In this document: positions 12,159 through 37,141 of the stretch, one piece after another
Layout: every line of letters starts with the position of its first letter
How positions within the stretch are numbered: the first letter of the stretch is position 1
Source: Acidobacteriota bacterium
GTDB lineage: Bacteria; Acidobacteriota; Terriglobia; Acidiferrales; UBA7541
DNA length: 37,449 bases
Assembly: GCA_003223295.1 (NCBI GenBank)
Contig: QHYM01000117.1
Location: forward strand, 1-37,449
Direction of reading: 5' to 3'
The notes under the pieces: generated by a model
Seen by the model: only the letters and a program-made list of their open reading frames with translations
The model's database searches: none
Told to the model about the DNA's origin: nothing
Position numbers and translations under genes: made by a program

Positions 12159-15100
12159 TTAGTGAGCCGCGGTTTCCGTTGCAGCTACTGGCTTCAAATT
12201 GGCCTTCTGAAGTACCGCATTGGCATTTGCCAAATCCTTGTTTTGAAGCTCCGCCCAGCGCGCCAGCGTTGCTTCCGCGGCCTTGTCCCACTTTGCGCTT
12301 GCCGTGTTGGCATCCTCTGTGGGCGCCACATCGGCGCTCTCTACGATACTCATCAAGCTATTCAAAGCCGATGCTACTTTCGGCAGCGGCTCCTGTTCCT
12401 TGCTCGGAATCGCCAACCCGAACAGGCCGAACCCGCCATCGCGCTCCTGTGCGGTCATTGCTTCCAGTTTCTGACTGAGTTCTTCCAGAGCCTTGGCCAC
12501 ATCAGCTTTCTCGCTCGCTTCCTTCTTACGTGCGTCAATCTGCTTTCGCAGCTCTGCAATCTGTCGTAGCGCCATCGAAACTTCGCCCTCCCGTGCGGAA
12601 AGTTTCGTCGCCATCTCAAACTGTTGCATCAGTGCTTCCTGCGGCGTCTTCACGCGGGGATCCATTTTCACAGTCAGCGTTTGCGTGCTGTTCTTGCCGT
12701 GCGCGGTCAGTTGCACGGTGTAGTTTCCCGGTAGCGCCAGCGGCCCCGACGGCCTCCAAAACGACGCGCGCACGCCCTTCGGCAGCGGGTACCGCAGGTC
12801 CCACACAAATCGGTGCATTCCCGGCTCCGTGGAAAGCCTTTGTTGTTCACGGACCCAGGAAGCAGGGAAGGGCAGGTCGTCCGGGTTCACTTTGCGAACT
12901 TCGTCGTCACTGGAAAAGCGCCTCACCAGCCTCCCGTTGCTGTTAAAAATTTCCAGTTGAATCGGTCCTACTGTTTTTTCTTTCAGGTAGTAATCCAGAA
13001 TTGCGCCATTCGGCGGATTCTCCGCTAGCGCCTCGTCATCCGGCACAGGCGTGCCCTGATCGCTTCCTGACCGCACCCGATACGCTGTCGCTGGGCGGTA
13101 GAGCCATACGTCCGCCGCCGCTGCGCGCGCATCGATCTGCCTTAGTGGCGTCACGTCATCCAGCACCCAGAACGAGCGTCCAAACGTCGCAATCACCAAA
13201 TCGTCTTCATGCACCACCAAGTCGCGCACCGAAGTCACCGGCAGATTGAGTTGTAGGGATTGCCAGTCATCGCCATCATCAAACGAAACGTACACGCCCT
13301 TTTCCGTGCACGCATACAGTAGGCCTTTGCGAAAGGGATCCTCTCGTACGCAATTCAGAAAACTTCCATCTGGTATTCCGTTCGAAGCGCGCTGCCAGCT
13401 CTTCCCGAAATCCCGCGTGCGATAAAGATATGGCTGATAATCCTCCAGCCGGTGGCGGTCTACTGCAGCGTACGCCGTGCTTGCTTCCGAATGCGATGCC
13501 TCGATGTGCGTCACCTTGCTCCACGGGGTCAATTCCGGGGGCGTAACGTTTTGCCAGCTTTTCCCCTCATCCTGCGTCAGCTGGATTTGTCCGTCATCCG
13601 TTCCCGCCCAAATCTCGCCCTCTTTCACGTACGATGGCCCAATCGTGTAAATCACGCCGCGCCGTTTCCCCACTGGCGCATCCGCCGCTGTTGCCGGGTC
13701 CAAATTTGATGGCACGCCCGAGTCCTCGCGCGTCAAGTCCGGACTGATCTCCTGCCACGAACTTCCGCCATCTGCAGTTCGGAACAGAACTTGCGAACCG
13801 AAGTAGAGAACATGCGGATCGAGCGGAGAAAAAACCAGCGGCAGCGTCCACGTGCGACGGAAGGATCCGGATTGCGCAATCGTCGGCGGCATTTCCTGAT
13901 TCTGCTCCGTGCTGAGATCTTGCCGCGACACAAATCCACCAAAGATTACGCCCGGATTCAATGGATCGGGCGCAATGTATCCATTCTCATCGCCCGCTTC
14001 CAGCGGCCGCCAATCATGAAAATTCAGAAAACGGTATTTGCTCTGGCTCGGGGTCGCCGCCGGTCCGCTATCCTGCTGTGCTCCATACACCCAATACGGA
14101 AACTGGCTGTCGGTCGCTAGGTGATAGAACTGCGCGGTCGGCTGGTTGAACCATGAACTCCACGTCTCTCCGCCGTTGTGCGTCACCACTGCGCCCTGAT
14201 CGCAGCTCAAAATCATCCTTTTCGAATCGTCGGGATCAATCCACAATTCGTGGTAATCCGGGCCCGTCGGATCGCCCTTGAACACGCTGAAGCTCTTTCC
14301 ACCGTCCACTGAACGGTAGATTGAAGTGTTCGGCACGTACACAATGTCTGGATTCTTCGAATCGATAGTGACCTCGTTGAAATACCATCCTCGCCCCCAG
14401 ATGCGGTGGTCCTTGGAAACTTGCTGCCAGTTCTGCCCGCCATCCTCCGAGCGGTACAGTCCGCCTTCCTTGGCATCCACGATCAGATAAATCCGCTTGG
14501 CATTGCTCAGCGCGAATGCAATACCCATCCGTCCAAGCCCTTCCGACGGCAGTCCGTTTCCTTTCACGGCCTGCCAATGGTCTCCGCCGTCGGTCGAACG
14601 ATACAGGCCGCTGCCCGGCCCATTCGAAGGTGGGTATATGCTCCAGGGTGGCCTGCGGGTCTGCCACAGCGCGGCGTATATCGTCTTCGGATTTCCTGGT
14701 TCGAACGCCAGGTCAATTGCGCCCGTGTTTTCGTCATGGAACAGCACTTTCTGCCAGTGAGCCCCGCCGTCTTTCGAACGAAAAACGCCGCGCTCCTGGT
14801 TTGGTCCATACGCGTGCCCTAGCGCCGCCACAAAAACACGGTTCGCATCGCGCGGATCGACAAGAATCCTTGCAATCTGCCGCGAATCGCTCAATCCAAT
14901 CTGCTTCCACGTCTTTCCCGCGTCCGTGGACTTGTACATCCCATTCCCCACGGAAATGGACGACCGCATGTCGGCTTCGCCCGATCCCACGAAAATCACA
15001 TTCGCATCCGAAGGCGCCACCGCAATCGCGCCAATCGAGGCCACCGGCTGTGCATCGAAAATCGGCTTCCAGGTTCGCCCCGCATCATTGGTCTTCCAAA

Positions 15101-15344
15101 CGCCGCCACCGACGGCTCCGAAATAGTAAGTTTCCGGCTGCCCACGCACGCCGGTCACCGCCAACACGCGTCCTCCACGGAATGGCCCGATCGATCTCCA
15201 ACGCAGCTCTTGAAACAGTCTCTGGTCGATTTGTTTTGTCGTCTCCGGTCCGGCCAGCAGCCGGACGGACGTACTACCAAGAAGCAACAGAGACACAAGA
15301 GCAGCAATGGGGCGCAGTTTCAAAATCGTATCTCCCGAGGGCAT
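12159..15344 (-). CDS. giant secreted BNR/sortilin-like propeller protein (paralogue 1)
   Basis: 1061 residues. Signal peptide about 1-31 (LVSLLLLGSTSVRLLAG). Residues about 45-720 carry about eleven Asp-box/BNR motifs of the S-x-D-x-G-x-x-W type (KSTDAGKTW, RSKDGGAHW, RSTDGGDHW, RTADGGSSW and others), which build VPS10/sortilin-like beta-propellers. A FlgD-like Ig strand pattern follows (PGNYTVQLT, about 880-920), then a charged helical, probably coiled-coil tail rich in Glu/Lys/Ala. Such proteins are often auto-annotated as sialidase-like glycosyl hydrolases, but no sialidase catalytic set (Arg triad, FRIP motif) is seen, so enzymatic activity is unproven. Closely similar to the protein at 25059-28355 (shared RGGR near the N-terminus, NQPTAQFYH, WVYGAQQ). 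Reverse strand, upstream of the amidase operon. Role unknown; extracellular binding or peptide processing is speculative. Confidence 0.9.
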   Translation of the reverse strand: MPSGDTILKLRPIAALVSLLLLGSTSVRLLAGPETTKQIDQRLFQELRWRSIGPFRGGRVLAVTGVRGQPETYYFGAVGGGVWKTNDAGRTWKPIFDAQPVASIGAIAVAPSDANVIFVGSGEADMRSSISVGNGMYKSTDAGKTWKQIGLSDSRQIARILVDPRDANRVFVAALGHAYGPNQERGVFRSKDGGAHWQKVLFHDENTGAIDLAFEPGNPKTIYAALWQTRRPPWSIYPPSNGPGSGLYRSTDGGDHWQAVKGNGLPSEGLGRMGIAFALSNAKRIYLIVDAKEGGLYRSEDGGQNWQQVSKDHRIWGRGWYFNEVTIDSKNPDIVYVPNTSIYRSVDGGKSFSVFKGDPTGPDYHELWIDPDDSKRMILSCDQGAVVTHNGGETWSSWFNQPTAQFYHLATDSQFPYWVYGAQQDSGPAATPSQSKYRFLNFHDWRPLEAGDENGYIAPDPLNPGVIFGGFVSRQDLSTEQNQEMPPTIAQSGSFRRTWTLPLVFSPLDPHVLYFGSQVLFRTADGGSSWQEISPDLTREDSGVPSNLDPATAADAPVGKRRGVIYTIGPSYVKEGEIWAGTDDGQIQLTQDEGKSWQNVTPPELTPWSKVTHIEASHSEASTAYAAVDRHRLEDYQPYLYRTRDFGKSWQRASNGIPDGSFLNCVREDPFRKGLLYACTEKGVYVSFDDGDDWQSLQLNLPVTSVRDLVVHEDDLVIATFGRSFWVLDDVTPLRQIDARAAAADVWLYRPATAYRVRSGSDQGTPVPDDEALAENPPNGAILDYYLKEKTVGPIQLEIFNSNGRLVRRFSSDDEVRKVNPDDLPFPASWVREQQRLSTEPGMHRFVWDLRYPLPKGVRASFWRPSGPLALPGNYTVQLTAHGKNSTQTLTVKMDPRVKTPQEALMQQFEMATKLSAREGEVSMALRQIAELRKQIDARKKEASEKADVAKALEELSQKLEAMTAQERDGGFGLFGLAIPSKEQEPLPKVASALNSLMSIVESADVAPTEDANTASAKWDKAAEATLARWAELQNKDLANANAVLQKANLKPVAATETAAH

Positions 15345-24741: not shown

Positions 24742-25058
24742 CGATTTCTCCGCCAGCCGCCTTAAGACTGCGCCACTTTTGCACAGTGGTGCACAGCTTT
24801 CCACAGCCAAAATTTCAAGTTTCTCTTGCCAAGAAAAGACGCCAGGTTTACTCTGCCGCACAGATTGAGCCGGGAAGCCTCAAAAACTTTGCGGCACAAT
24901 TGAAAGAGGGCGCAGCAGTCTAACGGCTGATGCGCCCTCAATCTTTTTGGCCCTCCGGTCGTGCTCGCCGATATTCGCCTTCCCGCCCCGGAGTGTTTCC
25001 AAATATTTGCTCCTACTTGCTTGGCAGAGTATCCTCTCCGATTTCGGGGAGGTGGCCT
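24742..25058. other. 317-base divergent intergenic region with structured leader
   Basis: Lies between the reverse SnoaL-like gene and forward BNR giant 2. It holds a 7-bp stem TGCCGCA/TGCGGCA (24854-24860 with 24890-24896) enclosing a 5-bp TTGAG/CTCAA stem, then a terminator-shaped hairpin (24906-24939) with a U-tract. The ribosome-binding site GGGGAGG for the BNR gene is at about 25046-25052. Promoters could not be placed. Confidence 0.55.
24906..24950 (+). terminator. terminator-shaped hairpin in the leader of BNR gene 2
   Basis: GAGGGCGCA (24906-24914) pairs perfectly with TGCGCCCTC (24931-24939), followed by AATCTTTTTGG. This is the form of a forward-strand intrinsic terminator, yet no forward-strand gene precedes it within 550 bases. 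It is 109 bases upstream of the BNR start, so it could be an attenuator or the end of an unannotated small RNA. Confidence 0.65.
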
Positions 25059-28000
25059 ATGCATTTGTTACGTCAGCGTCGTGCACGAGCGAACTGGTCC
25101 CATTGGGGAGCCGAAATCGGATTCATCCTTTGCTGGATTCTCACTGTTCCGGCGTTTGCGGACCATTCCAACAAAGAAGCAGTCACGTCCCCCGATCCGC
25201 AGGGCGGTCAATCCTTGGATCAGAAACTCTTTGGCGAGATGCGTTGGCGCTGCATCGGGCCTTTTCGCGGCGGCCGCACCGTGGCGATTTCCGGCGTGCC
25301 GCATCAGCCCAACGTTTTTTACATGGCCGCGGTCAACGGCGGAGTCTGGAAAACCACGGATTTTGGGAACACCTGGAATCCCATCTTTGACGATCAGCCT
25401 ACTGGTTCGGTGGGCGCGCTCGCCGTGGCGCCCTCCGATCCGGATGTAATCTACGTCGGCAGCGGAGAAGGCTTGCAGCGCCCGGATCTCGCTACTGGCG
25501 ATGGCATTTACAAATCCACCGACGCGGGAAAAACATGGACCCATCTAGGATTGCGCGATGCGCAGCAGATTGCCGCGATTCTTGTCGATCCCAAAGACCC
25601 GAATCGCGTCTTTGTCGCTGCGGTCGGACATCCCTATGGCCCGAACGCCGAACGCGGGGTTTTTCGCTCCACCGACGGCGGCCGGACATTCCAGAAAGTT
25701 CTCTATAAGGATGAAAACACCGGGGCCGCCGACTTGGCGTTCGATCCTTCGAACGCCCAAACCATTTACGCGACGCTCTGGGCTGCACGCGTTGCGCCAT
25801 GGGAGATTCGAAGCGGGGCTTCGTTCATTACAGCTGGCAGCGGAATTTTCAAGTCCACGGATGGGGGAACGAACTGGCGTCCGCTGACAAAAGGATTGCC
25901 CGGCGCTGAGGATGGATTGGGCCGTATCGGGATCGCTGTTGCGTCGAGCCAGCCCAGTCGCGTCTACGCTTCTGTGGAAGCGAACAAAGATGGAGGCGTA
26001 TACGCTTCCAATGACGCTGGGGAATCCTGGAAGTTGATCAATTCCGATCACCGAATCGGCGGGCGTGGGCCGGGAGCGATGGGAATTGCGGTAGCACCGG
26101 ACAATCCCGACGTTCTTTATGTCGCGAACACGACGACCTGGAAATCCACGGACAGCGGAAAAACATTTGTAGGCTTCAAGGGCGCTCCGGGCGGGGACGA
26201 TTACCAGCGCATCTGGATCAGCGGCGAAAACCCGCAGATTATCGCGCTTTCAAGCGATCAAGGCTCGGTAATCAGCGTAAATGGCGGTGCGACGTGGAGT
26301 ACTTGGTACAACCAGCCAACCGCGCAGTTTTATCACGTTACGACCGACAATCGCTTTCCTTATTGGGTTTATGGTGCACAGCAGGAAAGCGGCTCGGTCG
26401 CAACGTTGAGCCGCAGCGATTTTGGCGAAATTACGTTTCGCGATTGGCGCTTGCCGGGAATTTTTGAATACGGTTACATGGCTGTCGATCCGCTTGATCC
26501 AAACGTTCTTTACGGCGCATGGCTCACGCACACCAAACAGGATATCAGCGAATACGCGCAGGTCACGCCGGAGCCGATTCGCCGTGGAGAATATCGCTAC
26601 GCCCGGACGCTGCCGGTGGTTTTTTCGCCGCTCGAGCCGCACACCCTGTACTTTGCGGCGAATGTACTCTTCAAGACCACCGATGCGGGAAACAGTTGGC
26701 AGGTGATAAGCCCGGACCTGAACCGCGAAACGTACGAAACTCCGGCCAATCTGGGAGCCTTTGCGGCAAGCGATCCCGAAAAAGGAAAACACCGCGGCGT
26801 GATTTATGCGGTCGCGCCTTCGTTCAAGGAAGCGAATACGATTTGGGCGGGCACCGATGACGGCTTGATTCACATCACGCGGGACGGCGGAAAATCCTGG
26901 CAAAACGTAACGCCGCCGCAACTGAAACCGTGGAGCAAAGTCTCGATTATCGAGGCTTCCCACTTCGATGCAGGAACGGCATACGCGGCAATCAATTCTT
27001 TCCGGCTAGATGACTTGCGCGCGCACATTTACCGCACACGCGACTTTGGAAAAACGTGGGTGGAAATCACCAAGGGTATTCCTGAAGGCGCCGCCAGCAA
27101 CGTGGTGCGCGAAGATCCCATTCGAAAGGGGCTGCTGTTTGCGGGCACGGAAGGGTCGGTCTATGTTTCCTTCAATGACGGCGAGGACTGGCAGCCGTTG
27201 CAACTCAATCTTCCGCACACATCCATGCGCGATCTGGCGATTCACGGAGATGACTTGATCGTCGCCACGCACGGGCGTTCGTTTTGGATACTGGATAACA
27301 CCACGCCGTTGAGGCAACTGAATGCGGACGTTGCCAAGGAAAGCGCTCATCTCTTCGCGCCGCAAACCGCGATTCGTTTCCGCTGGAACCGCAATCCGGA
27401 CACGCCGCTGCCGCCAGAATTTCCTGCAGGGAAAAATCCGCCGGACGGTGCGATCTTTGATTACGTTCTTGGGGCGGCTTCAAAAAATCCAGTGACGCTG
27501 GAAATCCTTGATGAGCAGCAACACGTGGTGCGCCGCTACTCCAGCGCAGATAAGCCAGAGCCCATGGAACAAATCGCCAGCGAACATCCCATTCCTATGT
27601 ATTGGGTGCGGCCAACACAGATTTTGTCAGCCGAACCCGGGATGCACCGGTTTGTTTGGGATTTGCATTACCCGCCCCCGCAATCGCTTGAACATGAATT
27701 TCCAATCTCTGCGATCTATCGGGACACGCCCAAATATCCGCTGGGTGCTTGGGTACTGCCAGGAAATTACACGGCGAAGCTCACAGTGAACGGAAAAACC
27801 TACACCCAGCCGCTGGTTGTGAAAATGGATCCACGAATCACGACTTCCTCGGCGGATTTGCGAAAGCAATTCGAAATGGAGAGCGGTTCGGTGGAAGGGA
27901 TGAATCAAAGCTACGAAGCGCTCGCGCAGGTTCGGTCGTTGCGGGCGCAATTGAAAGAGCGTGCCGCGAAAGTGGGGAAGGGCCCAATCGCAGATGCGAT

Positions 28001-28355
28001 GGCAGCACTGGACAAAAAATTTGCAGAGTGGGAGGGTGCGGCGCAAAGCAGTTTCTTTGGCTTGCCGCCAAGCGAGAAGCGACCGGAGAACTTTTCAACG
28101 CTGAACCAGCACTTTGCGGGAATCCTTGGCGTTGCCGACAGTGCGGATGCTGCTCCGACAACCCAAGCCACCGCCGTGTTTAGGGAACTTAGAGCCGCGC
28201 TGGAGTCGCTCCAATCTCTTTGGAAAAAGATAAAAGAGGAGGACGTTTCCACGCTGAACAAGGAACTAAAGAAATCGAGGCTATCTGAAGTGGACACAAG
28301 CAAACCGCCATCGGAGAACCCTTCGGGCAGTCCCGATGGTGATGACCAACCATGA
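25059..28355 (+). CDS. giant secreted BNR/sortilin-like propeller protein (paralogue 2)
   Basis: 1098 residues. Basic N-terminus followed by a signal segment (about 20-36, IGFILCWILTVPAFA). About eleven Asp-box motifs between residues about 85 and 760 (KTTDFGNTW, KSTDAGKTW, RSTDGGRTF, KTTDAGNSW, ITRDGGKSW, RTRDFGKTW and others) indicate sortilin-type propellers. An Ig-like strand set (LPGNYTAKLTVNGKTY, about 905-920) and a charged helical tail ending in a Ser/Pro/Asp-rich segment follow. It aligns along its whole length with the reverse-strand protein at 12159-15344, including RCIGPFRGGRTVAISGV and NQPTAQFYH. ATG 25059 has GGGGAGGTGG just upstream; an open extension to 24930 lies across the terminator hairpin and is rejected. 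No sialidase active site is seen; function unknown. Confidence 0.92.
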   Translation: MHLLRQRRARANWSHWGAEIGFILCWILTVPAFADHSNKEAVTSPDPQGGQSLDQKLFGEMRWRCIGPFRGGRTVAISGVPHQPNVFYMAAVNGGVWKTTDFGNTWNPIFDDQPTGSVGALAVAPSDPDVIYVGSGEGLQRPDLATGDGIYKSTDAGKTWTHLGLRDAQQIAAILVDPKDPNRVFVAAVGHPYGPNAERGVFRSTDGGRTFQKVLYKDENTGAADLAFDPSNAQTIYATLWAARVAPWEIRSGASFITAGSGIFKSTDGGTNWRPLTKGLPGAEDGLGRIGIAVASSQPSRVYASVEANKDGGVYASNDAGESWKLINSDHRIGGRGPGAMGIAVAPDNPDVLYVANTTTWKSTDSGKTFVGFKGAPGGDDYQRIWISGENPQIIALSSDQGSVISVNGGATWSTWYNQPTAQFYHVTTDNRFPYWVYGAQQESGSVATLSRSDFGEITFRDWRLPGIFEYGYMAVDPLDPNVLYGAWLTHTKQDISEYAQVTPEPIRRGEYRYARTLPVVFSPLEPHTLYFAANVLFKTTDAGNSWQVISPDLNRETYETPANLGAFAASDPEKGKHRGVIYAVAPSFKEANTIWAGTDDGLIHITRDGGKSWQNVTPPQLKPWSKVSIIEASHFDAGTAYAAINSFRLDDLRAHIYRTRDFGKTWVEITKGIPEGAASNVVREDPIRKGLLFAGTEGSVYVSFNDGEDWQPLQLNLPHTSMRDLAIHGDDLIVATHGRSFWILDNTTPLRQLNADVAKESAHLFAPQTAIRFRWNRNPDTPLPPEFPAGKNPPDGAIFDYVLGAASKNPVTLEILDEQQHVVRRYSSADKPEPMEQIASEHPIPMYWVRPTQILSAEPGMHRFVWDLHYPPPQSLEHEFPISAIYRDTPKYPLGAWVLPGNYTAKLTVNGKTYTQPLVVKMDPRITTSSADLRKQFEMESGSVEGMNQSYEALAQVRSLRAQLKERAAKVGKGPIADAMAALDKKFAEWEGAAQSSFFGLPPSEKRPENFSTLNQHFAGILGVADSADAAPTTQATAVFRELRAALESLQSLWKKIKEEDVSTLNKELKKSRLSEVDTSKPPSENPSGSPDGDDQP

Positions 28356-29031: not shown

Positions 29032-29622
29032 CTATTCCTTTTGACTGAACCAGCCAAAGCCCAGACGTAGTTGAACTGTGTTAATGCCCGGATTGAGAGT
29101 CGTCAGGCCGGCATTCGAGATGTGCATGTAGCGGACCTCAGTGCTGAAGTTGCGCTTGGACCGCAGAAAATGCAGGCCAATGGCACCGCCGCTGGTGAAA
29201 TTAATCCGTGAAGTTCCCGCGGGCACTTGTGTATTTGTGAGGAGAGTACCGCCGCCGATCTCGAAATAAGGAACAACGCTGCCATGCGTATCGAACACCC
29301 ATTTGAACGCGAAAGGATTCACGCCCACGCCGTAAGCGGTGTTTTGCTTTTGAAAAACCAGGAAGGCCGGCACTGCTTCGATAGCATATTCCAAACGGCC
29401 ACGCAGAAAGCTAGGCCCATGAGGCTCCGTGAGAATCAAACCGTAACGCAGGCCAACATTCCACAGGCCATCGCTGGCCTGGCTGCCATTGGTGCCATGG
29501 CCTCCGCCGGTCCAAATCTGGACTTCATGCTCCCCATCGACAGGACCCGCCTGCGCGTGGGCCAAGGGAACACACAGGAAGAGCACAACAGGTAGCAGAG
29601 CTGAAATTGTTCTCCCCAACAA
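29032..29622 (-). CDS. PagL-like outer-membrane lipid A deacylase family protein
   Basis: 196 residues from a TTG start: signal peptide about 1-24 (LLPVVLFLCVPLAHAQ), then an eight-stranded-barrel-like series of alternating amphipathic strands ending in the outer-membrane C-terminal pattern LRLGFGWFSQKE. The PagL motif HISNAGL holds His167 and Ser169, matching the catalytic His and Ser of lipid A 3-O-deacylase. The position expected for the catalytic Glu, 14 residues after the His, is Asn181 here (NPGINT), so activity is uncertain. The start is set by AAGGAG at 29628-29633; TTG 29619 is the alternative, and a longer open frame upstream runs into the divergent gene. First gene of a likely two-gene unit with the PrxQ peroxiredoxin. 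Confidence 0.8.
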   Translation of the reverse strand: MLGRTISALLPVVLFLCVPLAHAQAGPVDGEHEVQIWTGGGHGTNGSQASDGLWNVGLRYGLILTEPHGPSFLRGRLEYAIEAVPAFLVFQKQNTAYGVGVNPFAFKWVFDTHGSVVPYFEIGGGTLLTNTQVPAGTSRINFTSGGAIGLHFLRSKRNFSTEVRYMHISNAGLTTLNPGINTVQLRLGFGWFSQKE

Positions 29623-29892
29623 AAAGTCTCCTTCAGGAGCTTCGATTCCGGGCTGCGAAATTGGATGCACAGAAGATATAGAAAAATACAGCCAAAGGCG
29701 AATCTCTTCTCGGGAAATCAAGGAGATTCCTGAGAGCGACGCCATCACGGCAGGCGGATGGAAAACTTCTTGGCACTGAGGCGAAAGTTTGCTAACTAAG
29801 TGGGGCAGTTTTCGTCCGAATACCAAAGGGTGTGGCGCCTGAGTCCTTTCCATCTGCTGTAGATTCACGTAGCGACCTTCTTGGGGGAACGC
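29623..29892. other. 270-base divergent intergenic region
   Basis: Between the PagL-like gene (reverse) and the LolA-like gene (forward). One 7-bp hairpin GAATCTC (29700-29706) / GAGATTC (29723-29729) lies in the presumed leader of the reverse gene. No gene and no recognised riboswitch seen. Confidence 0.4.
29628..29633 (-). promoter_or_regulatory. AAGGAG ribosome-binding site fixing a TTG start
   Basis: AAGGAG on the reverse strand, five bases before TTG 29622 and eight before TTG 29619. Either gives a clean signal peptide for the PagL-like protein, while no ATG does. Confidence 0.6.
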
Positions 29893-30696
29893 ATGACAAT
29901 ACATACGCGTCGGGCTCTTGCGGCGAAATTCGCCGAAGTTTATCCTTTTTTTCTGACGGCACTCGCCGTATTTCTGTCGCTCGCAAGTGGCGCGAATGGG
30001 CAGACCGTGGATGAAGTCATTGCCAAAAACATTCAAGCCCGCGGAGGGCTGGAAAAGCTGAAAACAATAAAGACCTTGCGTACGACCGTAAAGTTCAGCG
30101 ACGGCTCGTTTCGGGCGGAGTTTCGCCAGGAAAACAAGCGGCCAGGAAAAGTGCGCGAAGAGTTCATCGTCCAAGGTATGGCGCAGATTCAGGCGTACGA
30201 CGGGAAGACCGGCTGGCAGATTTCGCCATTCAGCGGGCGGAGAGATCCCGACCTGATGTCGCAAGACGACATGAAGAGCTTGGTCGTGGATGGAGACATC
30301 GACGGTCCTCTGGTTGATTACAAGGAGAAAGGGCACAAAGCGGAGCTGGTGGGGCACGATTCGATGGAAGGAACGGACTGCTACAAGATTAAACTCAGCA
30401 TGAAGAACGGAGACACTCGCTACTACTATCTTGATACGGATTCGTATCTCGAGCTGAAAGTAGAGGTTCAAACCACCATTCGCGGCGGACTCCAGGAATC
30501 GGAGCTCTATTACGGAGACTACGAGCAGGTGAATGGAATCTATTACCCGTTTGCCGTGGAGCAGGCGCAAAAGGGTAGTTCTTCGCGCGCGCAGTTCTCC
30601 GTCGATAAAATCGAACAGAATGTGGATCTGGACGACACACTCTTCGCCATGCCTGCCGCGAAAACGGAAGCGAAGAAGCCTTCAGCTGGGAAATAA
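29893..30696 (+). CDS. secreted LolA-fold-like protein, outer-membrane lipoprotein-sorting type
   Basis: 267 residues. N-terminal basic region and signal peptide (about 17-37, FFLTALAVFLSLASGANGQ). The mature part starts TVDEVIAKNIQARGGLEKLKTIKTLRTTVKF, the helix-then-strand entry common to the LolA/LppX-like half-barrel fold, followed by repeated antiparallel strands (FRAEFRQENKRPGKVREEF, GTDCYKIKLSMKNGDTRYYYLD, YYGDYEQVNGIYYPFAVEQ). Such proteins carry lipids or lipoproteins across the periplasm, but the annotation is fold-level. The start ATG at 29893 has GGGGGAAC before it. Located just upstream of BNR giant 3 (81 bases), in the same direction, so possibly co-transcribed. Confidence 0.75.
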   Translation: MTIHTRRALAAKFAEVYPFFLTALAVFLSLASGANGQTVDEVIAKNIQARGGLEKLKTIKTLRTTVKFSDGSFRAEFRQENKRPGKVREEFIVQGMAQIQAYDGKTGWQISPFSGRRDPDLMSQDDMKSLVVDGDIDGPLVDYKEKGHKAELVGHDSMEGTDCYKIKLSMKNGDTRYYYLDTDSYLELKVEVQTTIRGGLQESELYYGDYEQVNGIYYPFAVEQAQKGSSSRAQFSVDKIEQNVDLDDTLFAMPAAKTEAKKPSAGK

Positions 30697-30777
30697 TTCG
30701 CTGGAACAAGAATTACTTTGATTTTCCCAATAACAAAAATGTAGTTGTGTTACATGATCGCCAAGGACAACGCCGCC

Positions 30778-33700
30778 ATGCATAAATCGATTCGCTGTTT
30801 TGCCGCTGTGATGATGTTAGTTGCAGCTTCGCTGATTCTTGAGACAACCTCGCGCGCGCAAGATGCCAAATTTGATTCGGACACCATCTCCGGCCTCGGC
30901 GCGAGGAACATCGGCTCCGCGGCCATGAGCGGCCGCGTTGCGGCCGTCGCCGCGGTCAAAGAGAATGGCCGCCTCGCCGTCTATGTCGGAGCGGCCAGCG
31001 GCGGCGTCTGGAAATCGATTAATGGCGGCACGACCTTCAAGCCTATATTCGACAAAGAATCGGTGCAATCGATTGGTGCCATCACGATTGACCCGCACTC
31101 GTCCAAGACCATCTGGGTGGGCACCGGCGAGGCCTGGACGCGCAACAGCACTTCAGTTGGCAACGGCATCTACAAATCCACGGATGGCGGCGACAGTTGG
31201 CACAACATGGGATTGCCGAACTCGGAGCGTATTTCCAAGATTCTGGTGGATTCGAAAGATAGCAACACCGTTTATGCCTGCGTGCCGGGAAGGCTGTGGA
31301 GCGACAGCGAGGACCGCGGCGTCTACAAAACAACGGACGGCGGCAAGACCTGGGAGAAAATTCTCAAGGGCCCGAATCCGTCGACGGGCTGCTCGATGAT
31401 TTCGATGAACCCGCAAGACCCCAAGGTGCTTTTTGCAGCCATGTGGGATTTCCGCAGGAAAGGCTGGACTTTCCGCTCCGGAGGGGAAAGCCCGACAGCG
31501 CCGAGCGGCAGCGGCTTCTTCAAGACCACGGACGGTGGAGCAACTTGGCAAGACCTGGATGACAAGAGTGCCAAAGGATTGCCAGCCAAGCCATGGGGAC
31601 GCATCGCTGTCACGGTCGCTCCTTCGAAGCCCGACGTTGTCTACGCCATGATCGAATCCACGCGTAGCGCGCTGTTTCGCTCCGACGACGCCGGAAAGAC
31701 CTGGCAAGAGGCTGACCGCAGCAACTGGATGGTTTGGCGCCCATTTTATTTCGCGAATCTAATCGTCGATCCGAAAAACGAAAACAAGGTTTACAAGCCC
31801 GACCTCACCTTGATTATGAGCGAGGATGGCGGCAAAAGCTTTAGCGGTATTGGCAACGCTGCGCATGGGGATTTTCATACGGTTTGGGTAAATCCCGACA
31901 ATACCGATCATCTCATCGCCGGCGACGATGGCGGCGTCTGGTACTCCTACGACGGCGGCAACACCTGGTGGAAAGGCAACAATCTGCCGGTTTCGCAGTT
32001 TTATCACGTGAGCGTCGACAATGCCGATCCGTATCACGTTTTTGGAGGATTGCAGGACAACAGTGTTTGGATGGGGGATTCGCAGTACCCGGGAGGGATT
32101 TCCAATAGCCGCTGGGAAAACTTGTTTGGCGGAGACGGCTTCTGGGCGTTTCCCGATCCCGCAGACGCTACCTATGTCTATGTGGAATCGCAGGGCGGGT
32201 ATCTCGGCCGCGTAAACCTCAACACGCTGGAGGGTCGGCCGATTAAGCCGCAGCCCAATTATGGAGAAGGGAAGCTCAGATTCAATTGGAACACCCCCAT
32301 TCACATCAGTCCCAACGAAAAGGGCACAATTTATGTCGGAGCGCAATTTCTATTTCGTTCTCGCGATCACGGCCAAACGTGGGACCGCATCTCTACGGAC
32401 TTGACCACGAACGATCCTGAAAAGCAGAAGCAGGAAGAATCCGGCGGCGTCACCGTGGACAACTCCTACGCCGAGATGCACACCACCATCTATTCGATCA
32501 GCGAGTCGCCGCGCGGTGGACAAACCATCTGGGTAGGAACGGATGACGGCAATTTGCAGCTCACGCAGGATGGCGGAAAGTCATGGGCGAATGTCGTCGG
32601 CAATGTGCCGAACCTTCCGAGATTCTCTTGGGTTTCGTGGGTCGAGGCAGGACTTTATGACGCTGCTACGGCTTATGCGGCCTTTGACCGCCATACATTT
32701 GGAGACATGGAGCCGCACGTCTACAAAACCACAGACCACGGTAAGACCTGGACCTCCATTGTTGCACCCGACAGCGGCGTGCGCGGCTACGCCCACGTCA
32801 TCAAAGAGGATCCAGTTGCTCAGAACCTTCTGTATCTCGGCACGGAGTTTGGCCTGTGGATTTCCTTGGACAGCGGCAAGCATTGGGCGCAGTACAAAGG
32901 CCATGAATTTCCGAGCGTAGCCGTCCGCGACATTGTGGTGCATCCGCGCGAATCAGACCTCGTACTCGCCACCCATGGACGCGGCATCTGGATTGTGGAC
33001 GACATCACTCCGCTGCGAAAGCTGACCGCTGAGGTCATGGGCCAAGATGCCGTTTTCCTTTCCGCCAAGCCCGCGCAGCAAAGACTCGAAGCGAACGGCG
33101 GCTGGGCGGACGGAAGCGCGGTGTTCACGGGGCCGAATCCACCGGACGCGGCGCTCATCACCTACTACCAGAAGAAGCGTCATATTTTTGGGAAGATGAA
33201 ACTTGAAATCTTCGACGTGCAGGGGAAACTCGTGGACACGCTGTCGCCGAACAGCCGCCGCGGCGTCAGCCGCGTGGAATGGCCCATGCGGATCAAGGCG
33301 CCGCGGGTGCCGCCCGCAGCCACTGCGGCGTTTGAAGCCGCGCAGGGCCCGCGAGTTTTGCCGGGCACCTACACAGTAAAGATGACGAGAGGCACGGAGA
33401 CCTATACGACGCAGCTCGTGGTGACCCTCGATCCCCGCGCGAAATTCAGCCTCGAAGACCGCAAGATGGAACTGGAGGCGGCAATGCGCGTCTACAATTT
33501 GCTCGGCGACATGAGCTTTGATGTTGACCGCATCAACGGCGTTCGCGATGCTCTGGCCGATCGCAGCGGAAAGGTGAAAGGCGACGCGGCCTTCTCGAAG
33601 CGCCTTCAAGACCTCTCGCAGAAAGTCGATGAATTGCGCAAGAAAATTGTGGCCACCAAGGAAGGCGGGGCTATCACCGGCGAGGAGCGCATTCGCGAGA

Positions 33701-33975
33701 AGACCGCCGGCCTTTACGGCGACCTGATTTTTTACGAGGGGCGTCCCGCCGATTATCAAGTGGCGCGGATCGACTCGTTGCAGAAAGAATTGGGAGATGT
33801 CGAGAGCGAATTCGATGGCGTCATTGCGAAGGAATTGCCGGCGCTGAACAAATCGCTGGGCCAGAAAAAACTCCAGCCCATCCAGCAGTTGACCCGGAAA
33901 GCCTGGGACGCGGCGAACAGCGATTCCGGTAGCGCTGCCATAGCAGCAAGCGCCTCGCTGCGCGAACGGGATTAG
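30778..33975 (+). CDS. giant secreted BNR/sortilin-like propeller protein (paralogue 3, divergent)
   Basis: 1065 residues. Signal peptide about 1-28 (VMMLVAASLILETTSRAQ). About eleven Asp-box motifs between residues about 60 and 720 (KSTDGGDSW, KTTDGGKTW, KTTDGGATW, RSDDAGKTW, YSYDGGNTW, RSRDHGQTW, LTQDGGKSW, KTTDHGKTW). After the propellers comes GIWIVDDITPLRKL, equivalent to SFWILDNTTPLRQL in paralogue 2, then an Ig-like segment (LPGTYTVKMTRGTETY) and a helical tail. It is clearly related to the other two but lacks their RCIGPFRGGR opening (here ARNIGSAAMSGRVAAV), so it belongs to a different subgroup. ATG 30778 begins the signal peptide; an in-frame ATG at 30754 is possible. No catalytic set recognised. 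Confidence 0.92.
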   Translation: MHKSIRCFAAVMMLVAASLILETTSRAQDAKFDSDTISGLGARNIGSAAMSGRVAAVAAVKENGRLAVYVGAASGGVWKSINGGTTFKPIFDKESVQSIGAITIDPHSSKTIWVGTGEAWTRNSTSVGNGIYKSTDGGDSWHNMGLPNSERISKILVDSKDSNTVYACVPGRLWSDSEDRGVYKTTDGGKTWEKILKGPNPSTGCSMISMNPQDPKVLFAAMWDFRRKGWTFRSGGESPTAPSGSGFFKTTDGGATWQDLDDKSAKGLPAKPWGRIAVTVAPSKPDVVYAMIESTRSALFRSDDAGKTWQEADRSNWMVWRPFYFANLIVDPKNENKVYKPDLTLIMSEDGGKSFSGIGNAAHGDFHTVWVNPDNTDHLIAGDDGGVWYSYDGGNTWWKGNNLPVSQFYHVSVDNADPYHVFGGLQDNSVWMGDSQYPGGISNSRWENLFGGDGFWAFPDPADATYVYVESQGGYLGRVNLNTLEGRPIKPQPNYGEGKLRFNWNTPIHISPNEKGTIYVGAQFLFRSRDHGQTWDRISTDLTTNDPEKQKQEESGGVTVDNSYAEMHTTIYSISESPRGGQTIWVGTDDGNLQLTQDGGKSWANVVGNVPNLPRFSWVSWVEAGLYDAATAYAAFDRHTFGDMEPHVYKTTDHGKTWTSIVAPDSGVRGYAHVIKEDPVAQNLLYLGTEFGLWISLDSGKHWAQYKGHEFPSVAVRDIVVHPRESDLVLATHGRGIWIVDDITPLRKLTAEVMGQDAVFLSAKPAQQRLEANGGWADGSAVFTGPNPPDAALITYYQKKRHIFGKMKLEIFDVQGKLVDTLSPNSRRGVSRVEWPMRIKAPRVPPAATAAFEAAQGPRVLPGTYTVKMTRGTETYTTQLVVTLDPRAKFSLEDRKMELEAAMRVYNLLGDMSFDVDRINGVRDALADRSGKVKGDAAFSKRLQDLSQKVDELRKKIVATKEGGAITGEERIREKTAGLYGDLIFYEGRPADYQVARIDSLQKELGDVESEFDGVIAKELPALNKSLGQKKLQPIQQLTRKAWDAANSDSGSAAIAASASLRERD

Positions 33976-34131: not shown

Positions 34132-34758
34132 CTACAAGCCCGGGCACGAACCGCCGAACTCACCAGACGTCGATGGATTGGGCTTATGAAGCTGGATGTT
34201 ACCTCCGCCCCCGTCGCCAGCGGAACAGGGAGCGTATGAGCCTAGGTAGTGAGGAAAGCATTCCGTCGTGGTGTCATAAACGATGGCGCCTGTCGCCTGG
34301 CTTCTCATGCGGATGTCGAACTGATCGTTGACGCCCGGTTCGCCGAGGTCTTCGGCACGAATGGCAAAGTAAACGTCACCGAACTGATTCGTCCTGGCAT
34401 TCCCACAGATTAGACGCGTGCCAGTAGGTTGGTGCGTTTTCGGATCAGTCCCTGTGCCCTGGTCCACGAACTCATAAGCTGTAATTGCAGTCCAATGGGC
34501 ATTCAGGCCCGTGCCATGGTCCTGGTATTCGAGATGGCCCCAGGTTGGCGAACCATGTTTGCATCCGCCGCCGACGCCGAAGTTTGCCTTGGCGCCGTTA
34601 TGCACGATCCAGCCTCCGCCGGTTAGGAAATCGCATGGCGGTGTGGCCCAAGCTTTCACGGGGCTGGGCCTGACGAGCAACACCGCCGCTGCCAAGAGCA
34701 GCCCCGTTGTTAGAATTCCTGAAACAATTCCAAGTCTCGTTGTGCTTTTCTCATTCAT
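34132..34758 (-). CDS. secreted post-COAP-1 domain protein
   Basis: 208 residues. Signal peptide about 1-36 (ILTTGLLLAAAVLLVRPSPVKAWA). The mature part is the post-COAP-1 type domain: FLTGGGWIV, then KANFGVGGG, GHLEYQDHGTGLNAHWTAI, and later LGEPGVNDQFDIRM and the terminal GGGGNIQLHKPNP. These blocks are characteristic of the domain that in many bacteria follows the choice-of-anchor-P domain in the same polypeptide. Six Cys in the mature part (including PPCDFL, GGGCKHG, CGNART and CFPH) could form disulfides outside the cell. AAGGGA lies before the ATG. It lies 39 bases after the COAP gene, in the same direction. Molecular function of the domain is unknown. Confidence 0.88.
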   Translation of the reverse strand: MNEKSTTRLGIVSGILTTGLLLAAAVLLVRPSPVKAWATPPCDFLTGGGWIVHNGAKANFGVGGGCKHGSPTWGHLEYQDHGTGLNAHWTAITAYEFVDQGTGTDPKTHQPTGTRLICGNARTNQFGDVYFAIRAEDLGEPGVNDQFDIRMRSQATGAIVYDTTTECFPHYLGSYAPCSAGDGGGGNIQLHKPNPSTSGEFGGSCPGL

Positions 34759-34797
34759 TGTTTTTTATCCCTTCGATTCGAGGCCACTTGCGCGGCG

Positions 34798-35427
34798 TTA
34801 GGAGATGCCTGCTGTCGCGGAAGCGAGCACCAGATTGGCAACGCCATTCACAGTCACGTGAAGCGCGTTCACCACAAAGGCCCCAGTAGACGAAACAGTT
34901 TGTTCGTTGATGACCATCTGGCCGCCGGGAATCGAGACGGTCTGGTTCGGAGCGCCGCTTATGGCGATGGGAATTCCATTCACCACAAGATTATCGAGGC
35001 TTGAGCTTCCGCTAGCCGCAGCGCCCAGCACTTGCGTCGCTTGGGCCATAACGAGATCGGCGGAAATAGAGACTCCCACGAGGTTCATGCTTAAGCTGCC
35101 GAGCGAGGCCACAGAGTCCACTTGATCTGGGTAGCCGATTGTGGCTGCCGAGAGAGTCCCCGCACTCAACAGCGCAGGCACGCTTCCGGTCAATTGAGAC
35201 GCATCCTGCGCATCCGTGGTGCTTGCGAGAGGCGCCGTAGAGGCCAGCGTGGTTGTGGTGGCCGTTCCGAGAAGCCCGAGCACGGTAGCTTGTACTACTG
35301 TCGCTTGTCCCGTAACCGTGCTGGCAGTTGCGAGTTGCGCCAGCGCAGCCGTAGGCCAAGTCAGCAGGCCGGCCAGTAGCAGTGCGACGACTACCGGGCC
35401 CGACCTTGTGTGACGTTTTCGATGCAT
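34798..35427 (-). CDS. choice-of-anchor P (COAP) family secreted protein
   Basis: 209 residues. Signal peptide about 1-31 (VVVALLLAGLLTWPTAALAQ). An Ala/Thr/Ser-rich N-terminal mature region precedes the COAP-like beta-domain (about 90-207), with SSSLDNLVVNGIPI, GAPNQTVSIPGG, QMVINEQTVSSTGAF and VVNALHVTVNGVANLVLASATAGI, the recurrent pattern of this family. Family members usually end in a surface-sorting signal of varied type; here the protein ends right after the domain with no PEP-CTERM, LPXTG or helix-plus-Arg tail. The start is set by AAGGAGGAG four bases before ATG 35427. Paired with the post-COAP-1 gene downstream. Function unknown, presumably extracellular matrix or surface. Confidence 0.85.
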   Translation of the reverse strand: MHRKRHTRSGPVVVALLLAGLLTWPTAALAQLATASTVTGQATVVQATVLGLLGTATTTTLASTAPLASTTDAQDASQLTGSVPALLSAGTLSAATIGYPDQVDSVASLGSLSMNLVGVSISADLVMAQATQVLGAAASGSSSLDNLVVNGIPIAISGAPNQTVSIPGGQMVINEQTVSSTGAFVVNALHVTVNGVANLVLASATAGIS

Positions 35428-35553
35428 ACACTCCTCCTTATTTTGAGTTCCCTATTTCGCTACCTCGGGCTGGAGATTCCGATGGCTGGAAAGCAGGTGT
35501 CTCTTTCTTTGTGCGTGAATGGTCTAGTGCCACTTCCTGCCTCCGCGCGGACT

Positions 35554-35724: not shown

Positions 35725-35762
35725 TAAGTAACTTCCCCTAAGACTAAGTAACTTCCCGTAAG
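35725..35762. repeat. two 18-base direct repeats with 20-base period
   Basis: TAAGTAACTTCCCCTAAG (35725-35742) and TAAGTAACTTCCCGTAAG (35745-35762) differ at one base. A 20-base period is about two helical turns, as in tandem operator or response-regulator sites. They lie about 210 bases before the LamG-VanZ gene and about 300 before the COAP gene. Confidence 0.6.
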
Positions 35763-35971
35763 GCAAAGACCCGCTGGATTGCAATTAGGGTCCGGAATGA
35801 GGAAATAACTGACTCGTGTTTTCCTGTTGCGGCCCCGCTGGGCACAATTGATACTCTTTTCACTAGGGTCGCGACAAAGTAGCTCGCAAAGAAACCGTGA
35901 TGATAGGATGTGCGATGATTTGTGCGAGGCAATGGAAGATTAACTCGAAAACAATTTCAGATTTCTGACCA

Positions 35972-37141
35972 ATGAACCTCTCTGCATTCCCTGCAATAGG
36001 CGAGAAGAAAACCCTTGCCGCAATTTGTCTGCTTATTCTGAGCATCATGATCGTGGCCGCGTTCTGGCCCTTTACTCCGCATCCGGCGAATCATGTGGCT
36101 TGGCTGGGCGATGAGAATGGCCTCCGCTTCAGCGGACGTGGAATTATTTTGAGTTCCAGAGCTTTCGAGTTTCCGGGTTCCGGAACACCGGCCGGCGTAA
36201 GTCTGGAACTATGGCTCGAGCCATTTCAGGAAAGGTATTCCACCAGCCTGCTGGCATTCTCCTCACCCGCCAATCCGGAGCAATTCCGGCTGCGCCAATC
36301 CCAGAATTACTTGCTTGTTCTGCAAGAATCGTTGCCTACCAGCCGCCACTCTGCGATGACATCGCTGTGGGTCCCCCACGCATTTCAAGCCAGGAAGCGA
36401 AGGTTCATCGCCATCACTTCCGGCGCAGAGGGCACGACTGTCTACCTTGATGGAATTCCGGCAGAGAAGTCTTCCAACTTCAAAATCGCAGGCAGAGATT
36501 TCTCTGGCCAACTCATTGTGGGCGGCTCTCCGGTCGCATACGACACTTGGGGCGGAAAGTTGCTGGGAGTTGCGCTCTTCAGTCGCGAAATCACGCCTAC
36601 CCAAGTGTCGGAACACTACCAGGCTTGGCTCAAGGTGCAGCCGGAGGTAATTGAGAACGACGAGCCCATAGCCCTATACACCTTTGGGGAGAGAACCGGA
36701 GGCATCGTTCATGATCAGATCATTTCCGGTCCCGAGCTTGTGATTCCGGAAAGCTACTACATCCCCTACAAACCATTCTTGCAGGCTCCTTGGAAGGAGT
36801 TTTATCCCAATAGAGCTTATCTTCGAGGACTTATCATCAATATCGTTGGGTTTGTTCCTTTCGGCTTCTTCTTTTGCATGTTTCTTTCTTCGGGGCAGGC
36901 CAGCCGAAAGACGATGATTGCAACCATTGTTCTGGGAACGGCCTTTAGCTTAACGATCGAAGTTCTCCAAGTATACATTCCAATGCGTGATTCCGGCACC
37001 ACCGATATCTTGACGAACACGCTCGGAACAGCCATCGGAGCGATGCTGTGTCGCTGGGCATCGTCCTATGTGTTGCTGCCCGAAAGGAAATTGTGGCCCA
37101 ACTGCCCCCTCGCAGGGGAGGAGTCGAAGCGGAACCATTAG
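35972..37141 (+). CDS. LamG-VanZ fusion membrane protein
   Basis: 389 residues. N-terminal membrane helix (about 15-33), then a concanavalin A/LamG-like beta-sandwich (about 50-235) with VSLELWLEP, FIAITSGAEGTTVYLDGI and GGKLLGVALFSREITPTQV, the pattern of LamG_3-type domains. The C-terminal part (about 285-370) is VanZ-like: NIVGFVPFGFFF, AFSLTIEVLQVYIPMRDSGTTDILTNTLGTAIGAML. The Asp in DSGTTDILTN is the conserved VanZ polar patch between helices. The lectin-like domain sits between helices and is therefore probably periplasmic. VanZ proteins are implicated in glycopeptide tolerance and often lie near exopolysaccharide genes; the fusion suggests carbohydrate or wall binding. No clear Shine-Dalgarno is seen before ATG 35972. 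Confidence 0.88.
   Translation: MNLSAFPAIGEKKTLAAICLLILSIMIVAAFWPFTPHPANHVAWLGDENGLRFSGRGIILSSRAFEFPGSGTPAGVSLELWLEPFQERYSTSLLAFSSPANPEQFRLRQSQNYLLVLQESLPTSRHSAMTSLWVPHAFQARKRRFIAITSGAEGTTVYLDGIPAEKSSNFKIAGRDFSGQLIVGGSPVAYDTWGGKLLGVALFSREITPTQVSEHYQAWLKVQPEVIENDEPIALYTFGERTGGIVHDQIISGPELVIPESYYIPYKPFLQAPWKEFYPNRAYLRGLIINIVGFVPFGFFFCMFLSSGQASRKTMIATIVLGTAFSLTIEVLQVYIPMRDSGTTDILTNTLGTAIGAMLCRWASSYVLLPERKLWPNCPLAGEESKRNH

Follow-up and report, generated by a model that had tools for sequence, protein, structure and literature searches.

COAP and post-COAP-1 as two adjacent genes in an Acidobacteriota bacterium: a secreted two-domain beta-protein possibly made as two subunits

To describe the locus, we analyzed a stretch of 37,449 nucleotides (hereafter the window) and confirmed in it two adjacent open reading frames on the minus strand, the first matching the COAP and the second the post-COAP-1 family (Table 1). 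Their order and spacing agree with the coordinates given in an earlier note on this DNA. Both frames open with a signal-peptide-like sequence (MHRKRHTRSGPVVVALLLAGLLTWPTAALA and MNEKSTTRLGIVSGILTTGLLLAAAVLLVRPSPVKAWA) according to a rule combining hydrophobicity, charge and an A-x-A motif, and each has a Shine-Dalgarno sequence of its own, so that the separate secretion and translation signals noted earlier are present, the ribosome-binding site of post-COAP-1 being the weaker one. The left neighbor, a sortilin/BNR type gene (30745-33975(+)), converges on the pair and the right neighbor, encoding LamG plus VanZ (35972-37141(+)), diverges from it. COAP and post-COAP-1 therefore likely form a two-gene operon of their own.

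Table 1. Coordinates of the COAP and post-COAP-1 gene pair and its features in the window.
Feature	Position	Strand	Remarks
COAP (choice-of-anchor P) gene	34798..35427	-	209 aa; upstream of post-COAP-1; NF040603 match
post-COAP-1 gene	34132..34758	-	208 aa; downstream gene of the pair; NF041523 match
Intergenic stretch	34759..34797	-	39 bases between COAP and post-COAP-1
COAP signal-peptide-like start	35338..35427	-	residues 1-30, ...AALA followed by Q; rule-based
post-COAP-1 signal-peptide-like start	34645..34758	-	residues 1-38, ...VKAWA followed by T; rule-based
COAP first beta-strand, motif TGQATVVQATV	35278..35316	-	DSSP strand 8-20 of the model and motif scan
COAP Shine-Dalgarno AAGGAGG	35433..35439	-	read from sequence; score 6
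post-COAP-1 Shine-Dalgarno-like AAGGGA	34768..34773	-	read from sequence; score 4
Two 20-nt direct repeats in tandem, upstream of the COAP gene	35725..35764	.	possible regulator site

The repeats stand head to tail in the region from which COAP and VanZ diverge; their unit reads TAAGTAACTTCCC[C/G]TAAG[A/G]C, and they were not seen in the aligned upstream stretches of the loci L107-L109. The right neighbor combines a laminin-G-like (Laminin_G_3) and a VanZ domain in one protein. Three separate Sortilin-Vps10/BNR proteins are encoded inside one 22-kb part of the window (12162-15344(-), 24930-28352(+) and 30745-33972(+)), and the C-terminal end of a long open frame at 29035-30570(-) matches PagL (lipid A deacylase).

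Both family assignments proposed earlier were borne out by profile searches, with scores far above the curated cut-offs. The COAP protein reached 93.8 bits against NCBIfam NF040603 (choice_anch_P; cut-off 27, E 1.2e-26), spanning positions 1-184 of 185 and thus matching the full-length profile, while the post-COAP-1 protein reached 87.4 bits against NF041523 (post_COAP_1; cut-off 40, E 8.8e-25, positions 1-99 of 115). The closing motif of the latter, GGGNIQLHK, sits beyond an insert and was aligned separately from the profile match. A Pfam search with both proteins returned nothing but one sub-threshold row at E 0.22. The COAP domain of 171 residues contains no Lys, Arg, Cys or Trp and has a pI of 4.1. 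Compared with the named families, the window COAP is a single secreted domain with nothing after it, and post-COAP-1 does follow COAP, but in the next gene, as a protein with its own signal-peptide-like start rather than as part of the COAP chain.

Choice-of-anchor P proteins presumably carry a variable C-terminal anchor, as the family name suggests, although the profile does not demand one. The window COAP stops one residue past the last aligned domain residue and hence has no space for a sorting tail, as the earlier note had observed. The C-terminal stretch of an Actinomycetota COAP member (L297) looks transmembrane by eye, and the COAPs of L132 and L136 have a proline-rich tail with a hydrophobic residue at its very end, which may be an unrecognized tether. 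With regard to PEP-CTERM/exosortase cargo, no exosortase was matched in the host genome, a result which is not absolute given an assembly completeness of 95.2%; the exosortase family was matched in one of 14 control genomes. Searches of one literature library by the names COAP and post-COAP-1 found no described function for either family, and no title dealing with COAP appeared among the papers listed for 'choice-of-anchor'.

To place the gene pair, both profiles were run against 787 genomes from three phyla, namely the host phylum (396 genomes), that of a Rokubacteria MAG (95) and that of an Actinomycetota MAG (296), and matches over the cut-offs were paired by contig, strand and distance. 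COAP and post-COAP-1 do co-occur, in one chain and as adjacent genes. The earlier note had held that the two domains usually share a chain; such one-chain homologues exist, with the same two domains in the same order as in the window (e.g., L153, L173 and G026:C343), but they are not the rule, with 21 one-chain proteins against 27 adjacent-gene pairs (8 vs 11 in the host phylum, 12 vs 16 in the Rokubacteria-MAG phylum and 1 vs 0 in the Actinomycetota-MAG phylum). Adjacent genes are hence no rarer than the one-chain form in the sampled genomes. The reverse order, with COAP downstream, was found twice, both times in the host phylum. Several adjacent pairs are degenerate or cut by contig ends (G128:C55, G341:C151, G773:C48, G758:C628), and 17 Actinomycetota contigs carry two or more unpaired COAP matches, mostly in one frame. 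A scan of GTDB genomes was seeded with post-COAP-1 domains, mostly of the split type, and is therefore biased toward the type of the window. Among the best 80 of its 91 loci, 24 were fused, 37 had separate COAP and post-COAP-1 frames (among these L106, whose COAP is broken, and L185, probably a fused gene with a frameshift), and 18 lacked a COAP match, some of these being cut by contig ends; in L128, the two matches overlap oddly in one frame.

In fused chains, a linker of 11-18 residues separates the domains in 40 of 44 cases. Of the 45 split-pair gaps, 40 measure 7 to 98 bases. Fused COAPs mostly bear cysteines, with two or more in 32 of 41, whereas 43 of 45 split COAPs have none; Post-COAP-1 is flanked by Cys on both sides in 36 of 45 split pairs and in 30 of 41 fused ones. 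A link between Cys loss and splitting was not significant, with 2-3 independent contrasts.

A split of this kind could be accidental if a fused gene had acquired a stop codon or a frameshift, or if the assembly were wrong, and degenerate-looking pairs do occur elsewhere, such as L281 (148-base overlap), L185, where the post-COAP-1 frame begins inside COAP, L106, L142, L150, G341:C151 and G773:C48. However, by our own rule (not SignalP), which picks the most favorable start and has no outside calibration, signal-peptide-like starts were present on 45 of 45 COAPs and 44 of 45 post-COAP-1 proteins of the complete split pairs, and so on both genes in 44 of 45, while none of the 44 fused chains has a signal-like hydrophobic stretch between the domains. 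A stricter version of the rule rejected a few frames that the final one passed, among them the post-COAP-1 of L130 and the COAP of L138. Since the window pair also belongs to a clade of 41 rows that are all split, and its near relatives L107-L109 are split and intact, we ruled out a frameshift or assembly artefact for the window and consider an accidental origin highly improbable.

The history of the pair was examined on a tree. From 111 pairs, 100 were kept after removal of copies (56 split, 44 fused), and the 86 with both domains nearly complete (45 split, 41 fused) were used for a quick, midpoint-rooted tree. The window pair and L107-L109, its nearest named relatives, which come from Acidobacteria MAGs (group 2 by label in two cases) and are in line with an acidobacterial host, lie inside the all-split clade (SH-aLRT 100). 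This clade crosses phyla, comprising Acidobacteriota, Pseudomonadota, Rokubacteria and Nitrospirota, but as many rows are soil MAGs from similar sampling, transfer and mis-binning are indistinguishable. Split versus fused architecture requires three changes on the tree (shuffled mean 29.1). Four split rows outside the main clade fall among fused rows, and a single origin of all splits was rejected on this quick tree (p-AU 4.8e-7). The simplest reading is that the fused form came first; because the tree is quick and midpoint-rooted, we give this direction with reserve. COAP and post-COAP-1 distances were correlated in split pairs (r 0.64), fused pairs (r 0.79) and the main split clade (r 0.41), with 0 of 2000 permutations as high in each of the three sets, a result that genetic linkage alone could produce.

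Among the most widely shared clusters of neighbor genes at 97 loci, none was common enough to point to a pathway. The largest of them (26 of 97 loci) combines long frames that differ in position and strand and was taken for a probable chaining artefact; the others comprise 3-6 loci each, among them the close-relative sets L107-L109 and L155, L169, L185. The fused protein of L153 had no match in phages and one weak match in plasmids, in its COAP region, to an Embleya record; no plasmid match was obtained for the window post-COAP-1, and PHROG returned none for the window COAP, the window post-COAP-1 or fused L153.

Structure prediction with AlphaFold2 gave a confident model of the window COAP alone (pLDDT 96.3, pTM 0.89) with 11 strands. 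In Foldseek, nothing in the PDB reached E 0.001, the best row being an outer-membrane barrel at E 0.014, and no viral structure was matched at E 0.001 either. A COAP barrel in the outer membrane was rejected given that the barrel rows, at E 0.014 and worse, reached Z 3.0-4.6 in VIA-align and that only 2 of 171 residues are aromatic (F, W, Y). The best VIA-align score was Z 5.1, and the top rows were von Willebrand D domains of mucins; those of MUC5B, MUC5AC and MUC2 aligned over 96-101 residues at Z 4.4-5.1, which is too weak to claim that fold. A PDB search by sequence found nothing convincing, a casein kinase row at E 0.0098 being regarded as chance. The COAP model is thus a confident prediction without a clear PDB match, which by itself does not prove a new fold.

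The fused homologue L153, modeled with 57 rows, reached a pLDDT of 94.5 and a pTM of 0.85. As this pTM exceeds what would be expected for two freely moving domains, a preferred packing of the two domains in the L153 model is likely. The only Foldseek row under E 0.001 for the fused model was 7a0q, a kievitone hydratase, which was unconvincing (TM 0.20, rmsd 16). The post-COAP-1 part of the fused model resembles small meander beta-barrels, including a Dot/Icm porin III chain (Z 8.0), a designed barrel (7.7) and OmpX (7.3). It also aligns with the eight-stranded barrels of fHbp (Z 6.1-6.6), HpuA (5.2-5.8) and TbpB (4.8-4.9), but the window post-COAP-1 has no Pfam match, and OmpX and the designed barrel score higher. 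The predicted likeness thus probably reflects a common arrangement and does not show kinship. fHbp and TbpB are grouped as Slam-dependent surface lipoprotein barrels; the SlipAM profile had no match in the host genome or in any control genome.

The first strand of COAP proved to be movable. In L117, L118 and L124, the NCBIfam profile independently begins at position 15-18, compared with position 1 in the window COAP, while L137 is irregular (profile 3-155). For a motif scan, 34 N-terminal strands from split COAPs served as the training set and permuted rows were excluded, so that the N-terminal counts are partly circular and the C-terminal counts are not. The scan covered 10 positions with a threshold of 8 picked after the scores were known; one over 12 positions had been too long for most of the permuted tails, which span 11 residues. 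In the set of 46 complete split COAPs, this motif was N-terminal only in 37, C-terminal only, and absent after the signal peptide, in six (L112, L117, L118, L124, L279, L137), at both ends in none and at neither end in three (L163, L122, L123). By eye, L122 and L123 and the partial L116 and L126 are permuted as well; the tails of L122 and L123 are similar in appearance, though they score no higher than shuffled ones. In the 41 fused COAPs, the motif was N-terminal in 31, undetected in 10 and C-terminal in none. Permutation requires two changes on the tree when L122 and L123 are counted as permuted.

In the simplest reading of this permutation, the first and last strands are neighbors in one sheet. 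The bolder reading is that strands are exchanged between COAP subunits, and COAP could then be the subunit of a polymer that donates its first strand to a neighbor (donor-strand exchange), and post-COAP-1 would cap or anchor it. The movable strand and the low-charge composition of COAP, rich in A, S, T, V and G, would fit such a polymer. However, the AlphaFold2 monomer places strand 1 in cis with high confidence, and a sheet with neighboring ends explains the permutation without polymers, which makes this reading unlikely. In its fullest version, COAP would be a self-assembling building block of a fiber or matrix and would have an undescribed fold; its first strand, swapped between subunits, could sit at either end of the chain, and the split post-COAP-1 barrel would be a separately secreted cap or anchor. 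This version strikes us as slightly more doubtful still.

Domain context offers a hint at the role of post-COAP-1. In seven of 10 chosen post-COAP-1 proteins without COAP, Pfam identified subtilases or PKD/Ig-like, BNR or ice-binding-like domains; two of the other three had no family and one had a row taken for chance. The post-COAP-1 domain is mostly C-terminal in these proteins and N-terminal in L083. Since it is attached elsewhere to secreted proteases and adhesin-like proteins, post-COAP-1 is most likely a binding or attachment module, as this analogy suggests. One ice-binding-like protein (PF11999; L096 1115-2239(-)) carries it at its C-terminus. The host genome itself encodes a post-COAP-1 paralogue without COAP (L084 7435-8130(-), G000:C127) near genes that look NusG-like and glycosyl-phosphotransferase-like, a neighborhood with the appearance of an exopolysaccharide cluster. 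A protein near this paralogue has a tail that is PEP-CTERM-like by eye, but without an NCBIfam match, and the exosortase search of the host genome was empty.

Whether the two proteins act together has to be weighed against the many lone copies. In the survey, 98 of 148 COAP matches lacked post-COAP-1 and 58 of 107 post-COAP-1 matches lacked COAP, some being cut by contig ends. L106, which holds the closest post-COAP-1 protein among the best 80 of 91 loci (82% identity), has a broken COAP and an intact post-COAP-1, and L119 has a close post-COAP-1, yet no COAP match in the 4.7 kb upstream. In the host genome, besides the lone post-COAP-1 on C127 there is a COAP without post-COAP-1 on C381, a contig ending 0.6 kb downstream. 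Such cases would fit two proteins that are secreted together but independent, acting on the same surface or matrix without ever forming a stable complex. Against such independence stand the recurrent order and adjacency across phyla, the pTM of 0.85 in the fused chain and tandem copies of the whole pair, with two pairs each in L125 and in L136, which belongs to the record that also holds L069; L116 has one pair plus a truncated COAP and a post-COAP-1. We regard independent action as a serious possibility that falls somewhat short of even odds.

The reading we favor, with a probability of roughly 0.5, is that the pair encodes, as two subunits, a secreted two-domain beta-protein serving as a surface or matrix module. 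The predicted packing in fused L153 together with the co-inheritance of the pair makes a physical assembly of the window proteins plausible; frequent lone domains and L106 are the strongest counter-evidence. According to this two-subunit model, both genes would be read from one short transcript, and the signal peptide of each product would direct it to the Sec pathway for export. COAP would fold as an acidic beta-domain free of Lys and Arg, whereas post-COAP-1 would form a small meander beta-barrel shut by a Cys close to either end, probably through a disulfide. The two would then associate outside the cytoplasm, roughly as the fused homologues are held covalently, post-COAP-1 most likely being the binding or attachment module and COAP its partner head.

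The one-chain relatives of the two secreted proteins in the window suggest that the halves work together outside the cell. With the split pairs, binding can be tested on two small secreted proteins that can be expressed separately, the natural fusions serving as covalent controls, and the natural strand permutants and splits mark where the COAP chain and the module can be cut. Because its model is confident and without a clear PDB match, COAP is a sensible structure target.
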